Assembly (NCBI GenBank): GCA_946811695.1
Contig: OX328123.1
Span: forward strand, 10,848,698-10,912,697
Direction of reading: 5' to 3'
Length of the DNA: 64,000 bases
DNA from: Gonocerus acuteangulatus
Lineage: Eukaryota; Arthropoda; Insecta; Hemiptera; Coreidae
How positions within the stretch are numbered: position 1 is the first letter of the stretch; every line of letters begins with the position of its first letter. A program made the translations under genes and the position numbers. The notes under the pieces were generated by a model that had not been told where the DNA came from, did not search any database, and saw only the letters and a program-made list of their open reading frames with translations. Positions 36,161-53,392 of this stretch are shown here, one piece after another.

Positions 36161-39100
36161 TTTCAAGCATATAGGTACTCATATTTATGTTAATGTTTCT
36201 AGCCTTTTTTTTTTTGTTATTGTTTCTGTCCTTACGATTGTTACACCATATATGTTTTTACAGCCCTGAAGATGGCTTGTATAGCAAGCCGAAACGTTGG
36301 CGGCAATAAATATACATTTTAGCAAATAAAATGTGTTTTATTGAATAAGAACACTGACCGAAACCCCGACGATCTACGCTTCCTACTTCTGAACGGTCGA
36401 CCATATCTTCTCAATAAAAAATCTATTCATCCTTCCCCACCTTCACCTTCAACTTACAAAATTAAATACATTAATAATCCTGAGACCACGGGCCCCTGAT
36501 CAATTGTCCTCTTTCTCCCCCCTCCGAGCGGAAGCCCTGGGCACACTACAGAGATAGCGGTGCTCTGGCCACCTGATTTTCTCCTTTGCAAGCACTGATT
36601 ATCACTAAGAACACCATGTTCAGACTAGGAAATTTCATGTTTCAGAACCCGTTTCATAGGTAATCGTTTTTAAAATGAATTAAATCATGTTTAAAGTGAT
36701 ATCTGTAACCATTAACAAGAAAAAAAGATACAAATAATTTTGAGTTTGGGTATTCGGAAAAGATTGATTCAGTTGAAACTTGTTCGTTTGACATCCATCT
36801 AATCTAAGATAATTAAATTTTGGTTCCGTTTGAAGTTAAGGAAGTACACTCCAGACGGATAGGTCACTTCGAGCTTTTCGACCAGTTAGTATCTCTGAGG
36901 AAGAAAATAGATGGATACAATTTTCTTTTCTTTTTTGGTATTATGTATTGTATTTGTTATAAATAAAGGATATTTTTTACAATAAAGATTAACTCACAGA
37001 CCCTAGTATAGATAGCAGCCATGGCAAGTTGATCTGAAGCTGCACAAATATAGCCAAGAGCGAGTATTGCAGGAAATATGGTGTTCGTTTCTGAAGTAGA
37101 AATCATCTGAAGAAGCCCTGCTAATCCTCCAGAATTCACTACTAGCTGTGAAAACTGTAATCGCATAGTGAATTAAAAAAAGAAATAATAAATGAATTAA
37201 ATTATATAAAAAAATATATGAGGAAATAAAAGATGTTTAATTAACTCGTAGACTTCCATGGCCCAAGTCATTACAAATATTAATGTCTTCTGGTATTGAC
37301 CGTGTCACAAACTTCAATGCCGATGTTTCACTAGTCATACTACCAGATTCCTCAGGACTTAGTCTGAGAATGAGGATGTTCTTCTTTCAAGGGCATAATC
37401 TGCTCTTCCATGTCTCTGATGGGTCGATTCCACTCTTCCTCGATCCTGGTTGGTGGGTTCCATCAGGACCTTCGATTGGCTGAATTTCCTTTCTTCTTTG
37501 TTCTCTAGGTTTAAATCACCGGCTACCATAATTTGCTGAGCATGTATCCATCTTCTTTGTGGAAATTCTCCGGCTGTCTTACTATTTCTATGGCTTCCCT
37601 AATTACCCGGTCTTGGTAGTTCTCTATTGTAGCCAGATGGCTTACTTTATCAAATTGGGTAATAGGAGGCACAGAGGACATGAGTGTTAAAGCCTGAGCA
37701 CTTAACACTACGTGCCAAGAGTCATGGGTTCGATTCCCACTGGGGTGGTGGCTTTTCTTTCGAAAAAAGAAAAGCCATCAGCCCTATCCTGGCTAGAAAA
37801 GGGTGGTAACCTATAGATAACCCTTCCTAAAATTCTTATTTAATAATAATGGACATTAAAATTTAAATAAATAAATAAATTGGATAATATGATTAGTGTT
37901 GCAAAAATGTTTTGCTACCACCAATTTTTCAATATTGCCATTATTGACAGTCTTCATATGTTCTGATATTCTGGTACATATCAATCTTCCTGTTTGTCCA
38001 ATATATTCTTTCCCACAGGAACATGGTATGCTATAGATGCCAAGTGATTTCAACTTTAAATCGTCCTTAGCGTTATTTATCATTTGGCTCATCTTACGGT
38101 CAGTGGTGTAAACTGTCTTGGTATCATACTTCTTTAAACTCTTTGCAAACTTCTCTGTAGTTCTTATCACGTAGTGCACGATTACATTTTTCTTATTTGG
38201 ATCTTCCTGAAATTGGTTGTGTGTTTTCTGATAACTTCGTCCGTGTACCCGTTTTTCCTTAGAGCTGATTTCAGGTGTCTTTCTTCTTTTTTCAGATGTT
38301 TCGGATGGGAGATTCTTATAGCTCAAGTTACCAGGGTAGTGAATAAGGTATTTTTCTGGGCTGGGTGGTTTATATATCTATCCGTATGAGTGGGTTTTCT
38401 ATAGACTGAATCTATGTCTATCAGCATAGACTGAATCCATGTCTATCAGCATAGACTGAATCCATGTCTATCAGCATAGACTGAATCTATGTCTATCAGC
38501 ATAGACTGAATCTATGTCTATCAGCATAGACTGAATCTATGTCTATCAGCATAGACTGAATCTATGTCTATCAGCATAGACTGAATCTATGTCTATCAGC
38601 ATAGACTGAATCTATGTCTATCAGCATAGACTGAATCTATGTCTATCAGCATAGACTGAATCTATGTCTATCAGCATAGACTGAATCTATGTCTATCAGC
38701 ATAGACTGAATCTATGTCTATCAGCATAGACTGAATCTATGTCTATCAGCATAGACTGAATGTTCCAGACCTTCTCTACCTTTACATCTAATAAAGTCTT
38801 CTTCAGATTCCATCGTAAACTTTATTTTGTCATGTATCTTGTTTATGTGTTGGAAAAAATGTTTTAATGTCTTGTTTCAATGAGGCCGAACCACAAAAGT
38901 GTCGTCAACATACCTGAACAAATGACTTTGTTTCCATTCCGCAGTAGCTATACTTATCTTCTCAAACTCCTCCATGTATAATTCTGCTGCCAATGGGTTG
39001 AGTGGTGACTCCATACCAGCACCTTCTATCTGTTTATAATATTTTCCATTGAACAAGTACGTTGTATGTAGCGTAGACCGTAGTATATGCTAATAGATAT

Positions 39101-39420: not shown

Positions 39421-42400
39421 TATAAAATTAATTAATTAATGTTATAATAATTCAGTACATTTTTTTTATTTGAATCTGGCCCACCTACACATTCTGAATT
39501 TAATATATGGCCCTCTGCAACATTGACTTTGACACCTTTGATGTAATGTAATGCCCTGTTTTACAAAGCAAATAAAAAAAAAAAAACTAATTTCCAAATT
39601 AGGAAATAATTTACAGACTGTAAAGGTAGGTAAGGTGCCTGAACTGAAAGGTAAAAGATGGTTCAGTTAGAAAATTAGATTATTTAAAGCAGAATTTACA
39701 TGTATGTGGTGTTTCACGATGTCACAAATAAGAGAAGCTGCAGCCTTTTTCACTTCATTATTGTCACTTCCCAAATTAAAGAGTGTTTCATTTACAATAT
39801 CTGCTTCAAGAACAATTTCAGCCATTTCTTCAGTGTGCTTAGCAATGTTGCTTAAGCAGCAAAGTACATTTTTCTAAAAGAATGATATATTTATTTGATA
39901 AAAGCTGAAATATAAACTTAGTCTTTTATATTAGATTATTCCTGAATCAAATCAACACACCTATTTTACCTCACCCTTTCTGATATTAATGAAATTTGGT
40001 ACACCAAATGTTGGGGCTAGGACAAAAAAAAATACCAAATTTCAAATTTTTATCTAAAAGGGTTTCCAAAATACAACCATGTAAAGTTTTCAAAAAGCAG
40101 TCAAAATCTTGCTGTGGCAAAACATTTAAATGGTCATAACTCCTCACGTGTATAAGTTACAAACATGAAAAAGGTGTCACGTTTTAGCTCTTTATATCCC
40201 CTTTTAAATGACATGCAACACATGATATGTAATGAGAAAATAATTTTTTTCAAAATCAAAAATAAAATTTTGACTTTCAATATCTTTAAAAATTTTCATA
40301 AAATTACATATAATAGTGTAGATGGATATAGTTAGCCGCTGTAGAGATACGAAGACAGGTATAGTTGGGATTCGGCTAGGAGAAAAACGTCAGACTTTCA
40401 AAAAGAGATCTGTATTCTGGACGTTTCGACTGCAACAATGGCAGCCTTCTTCAGCACTAGAGAATGCCTAGGGGGGGAGGGAGGAAGACCTCGAGGACAA
40501 CTTAGGTAACCATGGTTAGAAGTATGATACTTCTAACCATGCTTACCTAAGTTGTCCTCGAGGTCTTCCTCCCTCCCCCCCTAGGCATTCTCTAGTGCTG
40601 AAGAAGGCTGCCATTGTTGCAGTCGAAACGTCCAAAATACAGATCTCTTTTTGAAAGTCTGACGTTTTTCTCCTAGCCGAATCCCAACTATACCTGTCTT
40701 CGTATCCTTACATATAATAGGTCATATCATTACTAATTTGCATAGGAAATTTGGTTATGGGATTGCAATGGGTTCTTAGTCAAAATAATTTAAAACCGAA
40801 AGCAACTTTGGACTAATGCTGCAGCCCCCCCCCCTGAAATGTTGATTTGATAATAAAAATGTTTCATAAAACCCTTAAAAATAAATTAAATAAGATCAAT
40901 TAGTTCACAAAAAATATTTGTTTTAATAGCGTTTTAGTTGCCTAAATCTCTAAAAAGTTATAAATTATTAGTATTCCATACCCCGGAAATGGTACCAGCC
41001 CCCCCCCCCCTCCGAAATTTTACCAGCCCCCAAAATTATTTTCTATGTACGCCCATGATTTTGTGTCATATTATATCTGTGTAACTCATTTAACAATTTT
41101 TCTGGCATTTGTTTTTCAATTTTTATATTAATCAGGAAATTATTCAGTGCAAACATTTCTTTAACTTTCATCATTTCATTGACTGTTTTTTTTTTTTTTA
41201 AGGAGGAAATAAATAATAATAAAATTGTAATAATTAATTTTAAATTACCAAACATACTTGAAATTTAATCTTAAATTACAATTGATAAAACAAGAAGTGC
41301 ACCTTAAGCCTCGGACTTGGACTGATCATACATTTGGCTAAGCACGGCACACAGCCTGCATCAATGAGTGCCTGTGCGAGAGTCACATCATGTTTGGCCA
41401 AATCTCCAAGGGTAGAAGCAGCTATTTGTTTAAGGCATTGTTCTGGTTCCTGCAAAGCAAGTTTCAGGAGAGAGACTACACCTGAAAAAAATATTTCAAT
41501 CAAATATAAAGTCATATGAATATAACAATATCTGCCTTCCCAAAGTATCAATTAATAAATTAATTAAAGGCTGGGTTGGCCTAGGGACGGTCAGGGAGGC
41601 CGAATTCAACCCATGAACGAAGACACTAGAAGAAAAAATTTTTAGTGCTTGCTCGGGATCCTCCAGCTTATTAGTCCAGTGCTCTACAACTGAGCTAACC
41701 TCGTCTCCAATTTTATCTAATAACGGGAAATGTTATAGAAATGAAATATTTATATTTTGGATATTAATTTGCTGGTTTTCAAGAATTTTATTAGTTTATT
41801 TATATTTGTTGCGCTGTTGCCTAGTATTTCATCCAAATGTACAGGCAGTTGGACTTCATCTCTTTCCTTCTTAAATTTTATGTCATTCAGTTAGAATGTG
41901 TTTAACGGTTTGAGGGACTCCACAACTCTCACATATGGCCTGTTACTCTCTACACATCAAGTTTGTGTTCTCGTGAATGCCCTACGTGCAGTCTAGACAG
42001 CACCACCTCTTCTCTTCTGTTTTCCATGAAGGACGTTTTCCATGGTCTACCTTCTCTTTTAATTTCTCTTAGTTTGTTACTATCTTGCTTTCTATTCTCC
42101 TCCAGCTAAATTTTGCATAGAGCCCTCCCTGTCCTTGCAATTCATTGAATTTTTGGCCACTAGCTGGCTGGTGACTGACTACATTTAATCGAAAAATTGT
42201 CTTCTGCAATTAAAAAAAACTTCTCCAGCACATCGGCTCCTCTTCTTCTTTGCTGGGTGTCTGTAATGCCGAATTTGTTATGATATAGCCAATATTTGTG
42301 ATTTCCTGTTAAACGGTTTGGTCTTCCCATTCCTTGTGTTGAAAGTCCCTCGTAGTGGTGAGTCCAAGGAGAACTACATTCTCCTTGCGTATTTTCTGTG

Positions 42401-47575: not shown

Positions 47576-48520
47576 TAAAAAGGAATTACCACTTCACCAA
47601 AGCTTGTAGCAGATTTTGCTTCTCCTAAAATATTCAGTGCCCACTAGTGAGTGGTATTATGACCTCCTAAGGAAGTACCCCTCTGTAACCCGTCCTACTA
47701 CAGTCCTACAGAAACCGAAGCACCATATCCAGCACTTCATCAAGACGAAGGGACCACCGGTCACAGCCAAAGCTCAACGCCTTCCACCAGAGCGATACAA
47801 AGCTGCGAGGGAGGAATTTCTCAAGATGTTAGACGAGGGTATCTGCAGACCATCTAACAGCCCGTATGCAAGCCCATTGCATATTGTTGTGAAGAAGGAC
47901 GGCAAAATCGCATTTTGCGGGGAATATCGCAGATTGGACGAGCAGACTGTTCCTGACAGATACAGCGTTCCGAACGTACAGACTCTCAACACCAATCTCA
48001 GCGGTAAGGTCTTTTTCAGCAAGCTGGCTCTGAACAGAGCATATTACCAAGTACCTGTAGCGGAAGAAGACATCAAGAAGACTGCAGTAATAACACCCTT
48101 CGGTCTTTTCGAGTTCCTGGTAATGTGCTTTGGCCTTCGCAACGCTGCCCAGACATTTCAGCGGCTCATGGACAGCATTCTGGCACTCCCGTATGTTTTC
48201 GTGTACCTAGATGACATATTGGTATCATCCACTACCAAGGATGAGCACCGCGTTCACCTGGACAATGTCTTCCGAATCTTGAGCGAGCACGGTTTGACCA
48301 TCAACCCATCAAAATCAGAGTTCTGCAAGACGGAGATTGAATTCTTCGGATTTCTCGTGAATTCACAAGGTATCAAGCCCCTACCAGCAAAGGTCCTTCG
48401 ACCCAGCAACAAAGGACAACTCCGTCGTTTCTTAGGTATGAAGCGTAGATCGTCGGGGTTTCGGTCAGTGTTCTTATTCAATAAAACACATTTTATATGC
48501 TAAAATGTATATTTATTGCC

Positions 48521-48559
48521 GCCAACGTTTCGGCTTGCTATACAAGCCATCTTCAGGGC
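48521..48559 (-). ncRNA. Hammerhead-like motif (PLE end type 1, left arm)
   Basis: - strand copy of the 39-nt motif seen at 36263: GCC, CTGAAGA, T, GGCTTG loop CAAGCC, GAAACGTT, GGC. Identical in all three copies in the window. Confidence 0.45.
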
Positions 48560-48671
48560 TGTAAAAACATATATGGTGTAACAATCGTAAGGACAGAAAC
48601 AATAAAAAAAAAAAAAAAAAAAAAAAAGGCTAGAAACATTAACATAAATATGAGTACCTATATGCTTGAAA

Positions 48672-49680
<1,009 letters not shown>

Positions 49681-49726
49681 AGATGGAACGGCATTTTTCT
49701 CCAGCGAAAATAGAAGCAGGAGGAGG

Positions 49727-49766
<40 letters not shown>

Positions 49767-49921
49767 CGCAATACCATCAGCGCTGCCAACGGACAGAATC
49801 CCAACTACACCAGGGAGCTTCAACACCATTCGTCCGCCGATACTGTGGCTAGAGGGGAGAAAAGGAGCCCAGATCGAGTAAAATGTCATTCCCTTGGCTA
49901 CCACCGAGGAAGAAACAAGTA

Positions 49922-49965
49922 CCTGGCTGAAGAAGATGGAGATGAATCCATCGAAATATTCCGGG
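49922..49965 (+). ncRNA. Hammerhead-like motif, tandem unit 1
   Basis: CCTGG, CTGAAGA, extra A, GATGG loop CCATC, GAAATATT, CCGGG. Stem I CCTGG/CCGGG (5 bp with one G-U), stem II GATGG/CCATC (5 bp), stem III A-U plus U-A with no loop, and a UH site directly before stem I. All spacing is as in a minimal type I hammerhead except for the one extra A after CTGAAGA. Confidence 0.5.
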
Positions 49966-50091
49966 AAGAAGTGAGGAGGAGTACCACCGCTGGAGAAAAA
50001 TGCCGTTCCATCTAAAAATACTATCCCAGCGACGAAAAATAACATCAAACATATAAAACCTTACGGCGAGGAAAATAGAAGCAGGAGGAGG

Positions 50092-50134
<43 letters not shown>

Positions 50135-50289
50135 CGCAATACCATCAGCGCTGCCAACGGACAGAATCCCAACTACACCAGGGAGCTTCAACACCATTCG
50201 TCCGCCGATACTGTGGCTAGAGGGGAGAAAAGGAGCCCAGATCGAGTGAAATGTCATTCCCTTGGCTACCACCGAGGAAGAAACAAGTA

Positions 50290-50333
50290 CCTGGCTGAAG
50301 AAGATGGAGATGAATCCATCGAAATATTCCGGG
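50290..50333 (+). ncRNA. Hammerhead-like motif, tandem unit 2
   Basis: Identical to the motif of unit 1. If the array were transcribed as one RNA, cleavage at each site would release about 368-nt monomers. Confidence 0.5.
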
Positions 50334-50460
50334 AAGAAGTGAGGAGGAGTACCACCGCTGGAGAAAAATGCCGTTCCATCTAAAAATACTATCCCAGCGA
50401 CGAAAAATAACATCAAACATATAAAACCTTACGGCGAGGAAAATAGAAGCAGGAGGAGGG

Positions 50461-50505
<45 letters not shown>

Positions 50506-50660
50506 CGCAATACCATCAGCGCTGCCAACGGACAGAATCCCAACTACACCAGGGAGCTTCAACACCATTCGTCCGCCGATACTGTGGCTAGAGGGGAGAA
50601 AAGGAGCCCAGATCGAGTAAAATGTCATTCCCTTGGCTACCACCGAGGAAGAAACAAGTA

Positions 50661-50704
50661 CCTGGCTGAAGAAGATGGAGATGAATCCATCGAAATATTC
50701 CGGG
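50661..50704 (+). ncRNA. Hammerhead-like motif, tandem unit 3
   Basis: Identical to the motif of unit 1. Confidence 0.5.
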
Positions 50705-50830
50705 AAGAAGTGAGGAGGAGTACCACCGCTGGAGAAAAATGCCGTTCCATCTAAAAATACTATCCCAGCGACGAAAAATAACATCAAACATATAAAACCT
50801 TACGGCGAGGAAAATAGAAGCAGGAGGAGG

Positions 50831-50868
<38 letters not shown>

Positions 50869-51023
50869 CGCAATACCATCAGCGCTGCCAACGGACAGAA
50901 TCCCAACTACACCAGGGTGCTTCAACACCATTCGTCCGCCGATACTGTGGCTAGAGGGGAGAAAAGGAGCCCAGATCGAGTAAAATGTCATTCCCTTGGC
51001 TACCACCGAGGAAGAAACAAGTA

Positions 51024-51067
51024 CCTGGCTGAAGAAGATGGAGATGAATCCATCGAAATATTCCGGG
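51024..51067 (+). ncRNA. Hammerhead-like motif, tandem unit 4
   Basis: Identical to the motif of unit 1. This unit lacks the TTACGGCG junction and runs straight into TATATATTTATATTTATATT of the right arm. Confidence 0.5.
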
Positions 51068-51215
51068 AAGAAGTGAGGAGGAGTACCACCGCTGGAGAAA
51101 AATGCCGTTCCATCTAAAAATACTATCCCAGCGACGAAAAATAACATCAAACATATATATATTTATATTTATATTTTCAAGCATATAGGTACTCATATTT
51201 ATGTTAATGTTTCTA

Positions 51216-51283
<68 letters not shown>

Positions 51284-51320
51284 CTGTCCTTACGATTGTT
51301 ACACCATATATGTTTTTACA

Positions 51321-51359
51321 GCCCTGAAGATGGCTTGTATAGCAAGCCGAAACGTTGGC
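51321..51359 (+). ncRNA. Hammerhead-like motif (PLE end type 1, right arm)
   Basis: Third identical copy of the 39-nt motif of 36263, about 100 bp from the right end of the insertion, downstream of a T run of about 65 nt (51219-51283). Confidence 0.45.
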
Positions 51360-53392
51360 GGCAATAAATATACATTTTAGCATATAAAATGTGTTTTATT
51401 GAATAAGAACACTGACCGAAACCCCGACGATCTACGCTTCCTACTTCTGAACGGTCGACCATATCTTCTCAAGTTTCTTAGGTATGTTAAATTTTTATAG
51501 ACGGTTCATACCTAATGCAGCGGAACACCAGCATACTCTCCATGCACTTGTTGGCAACTGCAAGAAAAGTGACTCGACAACAATGGAATGGTCTGAGGAG
51601 GCGGATGCTGCATTTCAACGGTGTCAGCAAGACATAAAATCGGCTCTCACATTGACCCACCCATCCGAGGATGCTGAACTCACTCTGGCATGAGATGCGT
51701 CGAACACAGCGATTGGAGCAGTTCTCCAGCAACGCGAAGGATCGGGATGGAAACCCCTTGGCTTCTTCTCCAAGACTCTCACGAATGCCGAACAACGTTA
51801 TTCTGCCTACGACAGAGAGCTGATCGCCATACACCGAGCAATCCGTCACTTTAGGCCCTCAATCGAAGGTCGCAACTTCGCTGTCCTCACAGACCACAAA
51901 CCCCTGACTCACATGTTCCGGCAACGCCAAGAAACGGCTACGCCCATGAGGATCCGGCTTGTAAACTTCATCAGCCAGTTTACAACCGATGTCCGCCATG
52001 TGTCAGGTAGTGATAATGTGGTCGCTGACACACTGTCGAGGATGGAGGAGATAACACTCCCAGACGACATGGAAAAAATTGCTGCGGAACAGGAAAACGA
52101 CCCCAACATTGCTGAGCTCCTTCGGAATCCGGCTCTGGCACTCAAATGGATGGGCGTTCCACACTCACCGAAACCACTGCTCTGTGAGACAAGCACTTCA
52201 AGAGTGCGTCCGTACCTGCCCGTATCATTGAGACAAGCCATGTTCCAGCAACTTCACAACCTCAGCCACCCCGGCATACGTGGGTCAAGGCGTCCCAACA
52301 ACAATACGTTGGGTCCTGTCCCAACGCTTCTTCTGGCCCAATATGAACGTGGACATTGCCACACAGGTGTGTGGCTTGCCAGCGGAGTAAAGTACAGCGC
52401 CATACCGTCGCACCTCCAGGAGTCTTTGCCCCAGTTGCTCGCTTCGAGCACATCCACATAGACATTATTGGTCGACTTCAACATCAGACTGCAAACGATA
52501 CTGTCTAACTATGGTAGATAGGTTCACTCGATGGCCCGAGGCTGAGCCAGTTGAAGACATTAGTGCGGATACAATAGTCAGAGCACTTTATAGGACTTGG
52601 ATTTGTCGCTACGGTGTCCCAGCCAAAATAACAACGGACCAAGGGCGGCAATTTGAGAGTGAACTCTTCCGCAAGCTGACACAGATTCTAGGGGTGAAGC
52701 GCTGTAGGACAGCCTCATAATATCCGCAAAGTAATGGCTGCATTGAACGATGGCACAGGACGCTAAAAACTGCCCTCACAGCTCACCTTATCAACGCATC
52801 AAGGTGGACTGATCTGCTACCTACAGTACTTCTTGGCCTGAGAGCAGCAGTGCGCGAAGATAACGCTAGCAGTGCAGCAGACCTTGTTTTTGGGCAGCCT
52901 CTATGTTTACCCGGTGAGCTGCTGGCAAGCAACGAACGACCAGAGGACCCTGAGGAGTTCCTGCGAAGGCTGAGCGACTACATGAAGGACTTACGACCAG
53001 CGCCTCATCGTTCCAGCAGTAGCCAAACTTTTGTCCCTAAGGATCTCAGGAACTGCAGTCATGTCTTTCTGCGAGATGATGCAGTGCGACAACCGCTCAC
53101 ACCACCATACTCCGGTCCCCATCCCGTAATGGACCGACAGCCGAAGACCTTCAAGATCCAGCTCCCGTCAGGACCCAGGACGGTCTCAGTTGACCGCCTG
53201 AAACCAGCCTACACCATCCAGGAGCCACCAGCACAGCAGACCACTGGACACCCTCAGAGAACACTGCCCTCCTCCGACCAATCTACAACCAGTAAATCAG
53301 CCGCCACACAAGCAGAACCACTTCATCGGACTTGTCGAGGAAGACTCATCCGACCTCCTGTCCGCTTCCATGACTCTGTCATTGGTGGGAGG

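Follow-up and report, generated by a model that had tools for sequence, protein, structure and literature searches.

The systems closest to the repeat described here are the Penelope-like elements (PLEs) and the retrozymes. Copies of Penelope in the rotifer Adineta have their pLTRs arranged head-to-head, and one of the pLTRs may carry a 31-bp tail (PMC3846280). For the PLE of the anole, reverse transcription (RT) is described as starting at two adjacent internal sites, which define the tail; the enzyme cuts AT-rich DNA, extends both strands and uses uncut RNA in vitro. The ORF of that element begins at stem II of the hammerhead, and RT is initiated 111-118 nt within it; there was no difference in start sites between the strands, and the ribozyme required the protein of the element (PMC11167929). 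Animal retrozymes have units of 170-400 nt, those of mussels measuring 350-390 bp (Cervera & de la Pena 2020, PMC7229834). What mobilises them is treated as an open question in these papers (PMC7229834, PMC7761336). PLEs or other non-LTR elements have merely been proposed for this role (PMC7229834), PLEs on the grounds of shared hammerheads, tandem copies and co-occurrence (PMC7229834, PMC7761336).

In this work, we examine a tandem array of short hammerhead-bearing units, called family A, in a 64-kb stretch of DNA (the window), and compare it with its dispersed copies in the same genome. The sequence features discussed below make it likely that the array is a non-autonomous PLE, with a pseudo-LTR-like unit, a minimal type I hammerhead and two fixed RT start sites ca 35 nt apart.

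Family A resembles the PLEs of the Penelope/Poseidon clade in its minimal type I hammerhead, its head-to-head and tandem copies, an optional tail of 30-40 bp at one end, AT-rich targets and an ATG at stem II, as these are described for the anole and rotifer elements (PMC11167929, PMC3846280). Unlike the PLEs, it has no RT/endonuclease ORF, its unit is only 331-371 bp long and contains an A-tract, and its targets are mostly (TA)n. With the metazoan non-LTR retrozymes it shares dispersed, short, tandem, non-coding units with a type I hammerhead. These retrozymes, however, are described as carrying mostly canonical hammerheads, while that of family A has a loopless stem III of 2 bp; circular RNA has been shown for them (PMC7229834). 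The LTR retrozymes of plants are likewise non-autonomous and hammerhead-bearing (PMC4918200), but they have type III hammerheads, LTR/PBS/PPT and Gypsy machinery (PMC7229834, PMC7761336).

The comparison with both groups suggests that family A works as a retrozyme does, but with PLE enzymes as its mobilisers, and we have filed it as a non-autonomous PLE and not as a canonical retrozyme. A preliminary description of this DNA had called the array retrozyme-like. The hammerhead-type RNA, the tandem units of retrozyme size and the dispersed copies bear this out, but the motif is of the minimal PLE kind rather than canonical type I, and the structure of the insertions is Penelope-like.

The array and its hammerhead motif

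Four near-identical units, three of 365, 368 and 371 bp and a partial one of 344 bp, stand in tandem at positions 49706-51153 of the window, and for these TRF gives a period of 371, 4.0 copies and 98% matches. This agrees with the preliminary description, which had reported four units of ca 368 bp, each with a hammerhead-like motif and a long A-tract (36-43 nt as measured here). Absent from that description is the left end of the array, a 33-bp inverted piece of the family-A unit. The parts of the insertion are the following.

49674..51153, + strand: whole family-A insertion, a short inverted arm and the tandem array; both outer ends are unit 3' ends
49674..49706, - strand: inverted truncated arm of 33 bp, which covers unit positions 224-256 and faces the array head-to-head
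49706..50070, + strand: unit 1, 365 bp, A-tract of 38 nt
50071..50438, + strand: unit 2, 368 bp, A-tract of 41 nt
50439..50809, + strand: unit 3, 371 bp, A-tract of 43 nt after an extra G
50810..51153, + strand: unit 4, partial, 344 bp, A-tract of 36 nt, stops at the second 3' site
49922..49965, + strand: hammerhead motif 1, predicted cut after 49960
50290..50333, + strand: hammerhead motif 2, predicted cut after 50328
50661..50704, + strand: hammerhead motif 3, predicted cut after 50699
51024..51067, + strand: hammerhead motif 4, predicted cut after 51062
51119..51153, + strand: tail of ca 35 bp, reaching from one 3' site of the family to the other; the right end has it and the left end lacks it, and its limits are blurred by A/T

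The left end of the insertion lies at unit position ca 256 and the right end at ca 287, and both adjoin (TA)n or otherwise AT-rich DNA. An ORF check of the family-A unit found no RT + GIY-YIG ORF.

The 44-nt motif, CCTGG-CTGAAGA-A-GATGG..CCATC-GAAA-TATT-CCGGG, has the same letters in all four units of the window. The nine core positions (C3, U4, G5, A6, G8, A9, G12, A13 and A14) are all present, with U17 at the cut, and the stems are CCUGG/CCGGG (I), GAUGG/CCAUC (II) and AU/AU without a loop (III). The 5-bp stems I and II, the 2-bp loopless stem III and the UH cleavage site had all been noticed before, and we find them in each of the four units. The motif has thus the core of a type I hammerhead, in which A9 is followed by an additional nucleotide and stem III measures 2 bp; the looped helix III of a canonical hammerhead is missing.

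A descriptor of the motif (CTGANGA, 0 or 1 extra nucleotide, stem II of at least 4, GAAA, stem III of at least 2 bp, H17, stem I of at least 5), in which the optional extra nucleotide is a loosening made after the finding was known, matches exactly the four family-A motif places in the window. The same descriptor gives no match in 20,000 Markov-1 random units (one strand), and none in 60 random sequences of 64 kb (both strands). When the 56 nt around the motif are folded alone, the minimum free energy (MFE) structure consists of stems I and II (-16.3 kcal/mol, z -3.07), and 2 of 200 shuffles fold equally well. In the fold of the whole 368-nt unit, the centroid retains both stems, while the MFE structure has only stem II, stem I being broken. 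The preliminary description had named a comparison with the Rfam hammerhead models as a check, and this turned out negative: Rfam has no match in the window at gathering score, and its hammerhead models do not match the motif alone even at E <= 10. Judged from its letters and predicted fold, the family-A motif is hammerhead-type and a probable self-cutting RNA.

The extra A after CTGAAGA had previously been regarded as a departure from the hammerhead, and this view probably needs revision. In a wider scan, with stem I of at least 3, on both strands of the window and of loci L031-L052 (262,922 bases in all), 17 distinct motifs were found at 39 places, against 0 in the 60 random sequences of 64 kb. 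In all 17, CTGANGA is followed by a single extra nucleotide, and no motif is without it. Thirteen of them, at 33 places, belong to family A and one, at three places all in the window, to a second family (family B, see below); the others lie in L038, in L048 and, doubtfully, in L034. The motif of L048 stands 3' of a PLE-like C-terminus, which compares at 77.6% over 442 columns with the PLE relic of the window. With 17 of 17 motifs having the extra nucleotide, one of them after a PLE-like C-terminus, it seems to be customary for the PLE-type hammerheads of this genome, and the extra A is probably no defect. The active CChMVd (+) hammerhead, treated by De la Pena and Flores in 2001, reportedly has an extra A between A9 and G10.1. 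The place is the same as in family A, but CChMVd is a viroid ribozyme and not a retroelement.

Constraint on the unit was estimated from 19 divergent copies (pieces from L001-L030 of >100 bp and <95% identity, plus both copies of L011) by counting departures from the majority. There are 3/143 departures in the core nine, 4/160 in stem I and 0/72 in stem III. Together these make 7/375, compared with 225/2527 at unit positions 30-157 and 202-256, with p 1.1e-7 if the copies are treated as independent, which they are not. Stem II, with 12/170 departures, is conserved no better than the rest of the unit (p 0.48, on the same assumption), and loop II has 20/137. Hammerheads leave N7 free, and in family A this position departs in 8 of 16 copies, while the extra A does so in one of 16. 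Two copies, L008 and L018, have C17 in place of U17. The stretch at unit positions 202-229, which adjoins the motif, is also somewhat conserved (31/504), and the ribozyme is therefore not the sole constrained part of the unit. The rates at the three codon positions, 8.9/7.0/9.3%, are without coding signal.

Pairing was considered in 21 aligned motifs, an alignment that leaves out the minus copies of L005 and L021 and both copies of L025, all of which have deletions or insertions within the motif, as well as L035 and L036 (too decayed), and that keeps the core-decayed L034. In these, 97.2% of the stem cells pair, compared with 17.9-55.8% in slid controls. The 3' strand of stem I is CCAGG, Watson-Crick with CCUGG, in 15 of the 21, and CCGGG in the window. 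Between family A and family B, most pairs of stem II differ yet still pair. Among the 21 motifs, however, there is only one compensatory pair (L021, A-U to C-G), and 39-194 of 500 shuffles score as high across five measures of covariation. Of the copies elsewhere with stem covariation that the preliminary description had asked for, the copies are indeed found, as at least 58 BLAST pieces in the genome (1.1 Gb, 135 contigs), but the covariation is weak.

Insertion ends and nesting

The ends of family A were examined at 25 separate loci (L031-L050, L009, L010, L015, L016 and the window), and 17 of these have head-to-head arms. At 13 of the 17, both outer ends fall at fixed 3' sites, one near unit position 249-257 (site 1, CCATCTAAA) and the other near 285-294 (site 2, AACATCAAACA), ca 35 bp apart. 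Eleven of these 13 two-ended loci have one end at each site (p 0.011 with even odds). The exceptions, site 1 twice in L031 and site 2 twice in L041, make this a modest pattern, and the anole PLE, with its start sites alike on both strands, speaks against it. In each of the other four head-to-head loci, one outer end departs from the two sites: it lies at 154 in L034, at 229 in L016, and at a LINE in L050 and in L047, the left arm of which runs into the LINE. The remaining eight loci have a single arm, or arms in one direction, bounded on the other side by a truncated 5' end or by other DNA.

A TA run of at least 10 nt is found within the next 40 bases at 27 of the 39 outer ends at a 3' site, and not at the other 12; the background is 447 of 20,000 random 40-mers of the window (2.2%). 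No TSD of family A is readable in (TA)n. The inner 5' ends, 34 in number at the 17 head-to-head junctions, are scattered across the unit, and they do not cluster at the ribozyme cut, only one of the 34 being within 2 nt of it. This bears on the role of the ribozyme, as the 5' ends of the cDNAs observed here are not determined by the cut.

Family A combines the marks of a non-autonomous PLE, namely the minimal hammerhead, head-to-head arms with outward 3' ends, a one-sided tail of 30-40 bp and AT-rich targets. Its ATG lies in stem II, and the two 3' sites are ca 80-84 and 115-119 nt downstream of it.

In a family-A insertion of L038 (4641-5214), unit positions 277-311 are repeated ca 71 bp apart at the centre, such that the region of 3' site 2 is itself amplified.

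In the window, the array sits in the internal (TA)n of family B, a second hammerhead-bearing PLE-like element, the arms of which run inverted from 48441 on the left and to 51473 on the right. Family B repeats the design of family A, with a tail at one end only, and has in addition a readable TSD of 13 bp. Family B in turn interrupts a Gypsy pol, and a decayed PLE relic is found farther to the left.

37241..38377, - strand: decayed PLE relic, with a GIY-YIG-like ORF at 37856-38377; its hammerhead, also decayed, has CTGA at 37355
47610..48427, + strand: RT portion of a Gypsy pol that family B interrupts (Pfam RVT_1, E 1.1e-24)
48428..48440: left TSD of family B, 13 bp, TTTCTTAGGTATG
48441..51473: family-B insertion, head-to-head
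51321..51359, + strand: family-B hammerhead motif, with an extra U, an ACGU loopless stem III and a 3-bp stem I
51440..51473, + strand: family-B tail, 33-34 bp, at the right end only
51474..51486: right TSD of family B
51694..52461, + strand: Gypsy pol continued, RNase H (Pfam RT_RNaseH, E 3.1e-26)

From this nesting, the order of events would be Gypsy, then family B, then family A. Further copies of the family-B motif have their CTGA at 36266 (+) and 48556 (-), and Rfam gives no hammerhead match for this motif. The decayed hammerhead of the relic aligns with the better-preserved one of L048. The relic ORF has no Pfam GIY-YIG domain, the assignment being by eye. In the window and the loci examined, we found no autonomous PLE that shares the ends of the family-A unit and could be its helper.

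The window has some other repeats. An additional copy of family B lies at 36205-36402. At 38401-38761, a 25-bp tandem repeat (ATAGACTGAATCTATGTCTATCAGC, 14.4 copies, 99%) is placed by eye inside the PLE relic, between its RT-like and GIY-YIG-like parts. A near-perfect head-to-head palindrome at 40400-40700 has a weak hammerhead-like motif in each arm (40454 -, 40598 +), and is perhaps a third PLE-like family.

Proposed propagation and competing explanations

The non-autonomous PLE proposed here could move in five steps. The genomic array would be transcribed, probably by read-through, into a multi-unit RNA. In this RNA the hammerhead would fold and could cut after U17, with two units probably folding best together, as a dimer held by the self-complementary AUAU; dimeric cleavage of such small hammerheads is said to have been described by Lunse in 2017. 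Next, a PLE RT/GIY-YIG protein from elsewhere would bind the unit near the 3' sites, and the same protein would cut both strands of an AT-rich target, often (TA)n. Cutting of AT-rich DNA and use of both strands are activities shown for the anole PLE (PMC11167929). Each cut strand would then prime RT inside the RNA, usually one per site, as read from the ends of 11 of the 13 two-ended insertions, and both strands may be primed on one and the same RNA. Finally, the cDNA would pass at least one unit and the ribozyme site and halt at scattered points, and two cDNAs would join head-to-head; this step is proposed because the 34 5' ends are scattered and the tandem units are intact across the ribozyme. 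In the window, the target was (TA)n within family B, which had earlier split the Gypsy pol.

It is also conceivable, though we hold it only tentatively, that family A follows the canonical course of a metazoan retrozyme, in which hammerhead-cut transcripts are ligated to circles of ca 370 nt and reverse transcribed to tandem cDNA. The unit size and the tandem form are within the range given for animals (PMC7229834), and circles would likewise yield tandem units without ends at the cut. However, the ribozyme is of the minimal PLE type with its 2-bp loopless stem III, the outer 3' sites are two and fixed while the 5' ends are scattered, and the head-to-head arms require two cDNAs. The two explanations overlap, as a PLE could use circles. 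An ordinary satellite or tandem duplication with a chance hammerhead would agree with the missing Rfam match and the weak covariation, but is highly unlikely in view of the random sequences, which give no descriptor match, the pattern of constraint with a free N7, and the dispersed loci with their fixed 3' sites.

The constraint might instead be carried by an open frame, the unit being a repeated coding exon or C-terminus. One unit does have an open frame of 103 codons, and the lengths of several indels close to the motif are divisible by three. We rejected the C-terminal exon because of the codon-position rates, which are without bias, the stop codon, lost in several copies (TAA to CAA), and the unit length of 365/368, not a multiple of three, with 5-nt and 1-nt indels elsewhere; a coding origin is accordingly given very little chance, and the family-A unit is without a maintained reading frame. 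As the array is flanked by long inverted repeats and (TA)n, we have also considered an assembly artefact, in which reads would be collapsed or chimeric where (TA)n, poly-A and inverted repeats occur. This deserves hardly any credence, since the architecture recurs on different contigs with different break points, and the rotifer PLE insertions are described as having a like structure (PMC3846280).

The non-autonomous PLE reading can be extended to a bolder one, in which family A is a retrozyme moved by PLE enzymes, a paired enzyme starts at the two fixed sites of one RNA, one per strand, and the unit is in addition a dedicated landing site for a LINE. With two sites of one RNA used, one per target strand, there would usually be one end of each kind. 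Taken as a whole, we consider this extended reading rather doubtful.

A multi-copy hammerhead unit with a PLE signature, standing beside family B and a PLE relic that share its ribozyme design, makes the idea of PLEs as mobilisers testable. A purified-enzyme assay like that for the anole PLE can check each of three points, namely the two RT start sites, the (TA)n target and the tendency to have one end of each kind. Family A suggests how ribozyme repeats may spread through an animal genome.

A LINE in the family-A unit

At three loci, a LINE is found at one fixed position of the unit (rotated position ca 114-127), the target being (GA)AAATGTCAT(TC).

Contig C1, 164.29 Mb: L051 and L045
Contig C1, 14.03 Mb: L052 and L050
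Contig C31, 68.67 Mb: L047, more complex, with two LINE stretches

The LINE is ca 5 kb long and has endonuclease and RT domains (Pfam) and, by eye, a zinc-knuckle ORF. Its 5' junctions vary among the three loci, and its 3' end is poly-A. The best named relatives of the Gypsy and LINE proteins are from a spider, Oedothorax (54%, with 70% of the query covered), and a bug, Halyomorpha (47%, with 66% covered), respectively, the latter not being the nearest match of the LINE protein; both are arthropods, and the host is likely an arthropod as well. The fixed position makes this LINE a candidate site-specific inserter into the retrozyme unit, and the proposed landing site may be likened to those of R1 and R2 in rDNA; it is important to note that the LINE copies were reached through unit matches only, and copies elsewhere would have been missed. 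A different, truncated LINE lies near the same unit position in L043.

Unit position 116 was at one stage considered as a transcription start, as it seemed to be a recurrent 5' end joined to the poly-A of other RNAs. This was ruled out for L045, L047 and L050, where LINEs are inserted in the unit, and L043 has the other LINE nearby. Copies at three further loci, L016, L032 and L046, also begin at this position although no poly-A LINE is inserted there, and in L032 a G run precedes the start.
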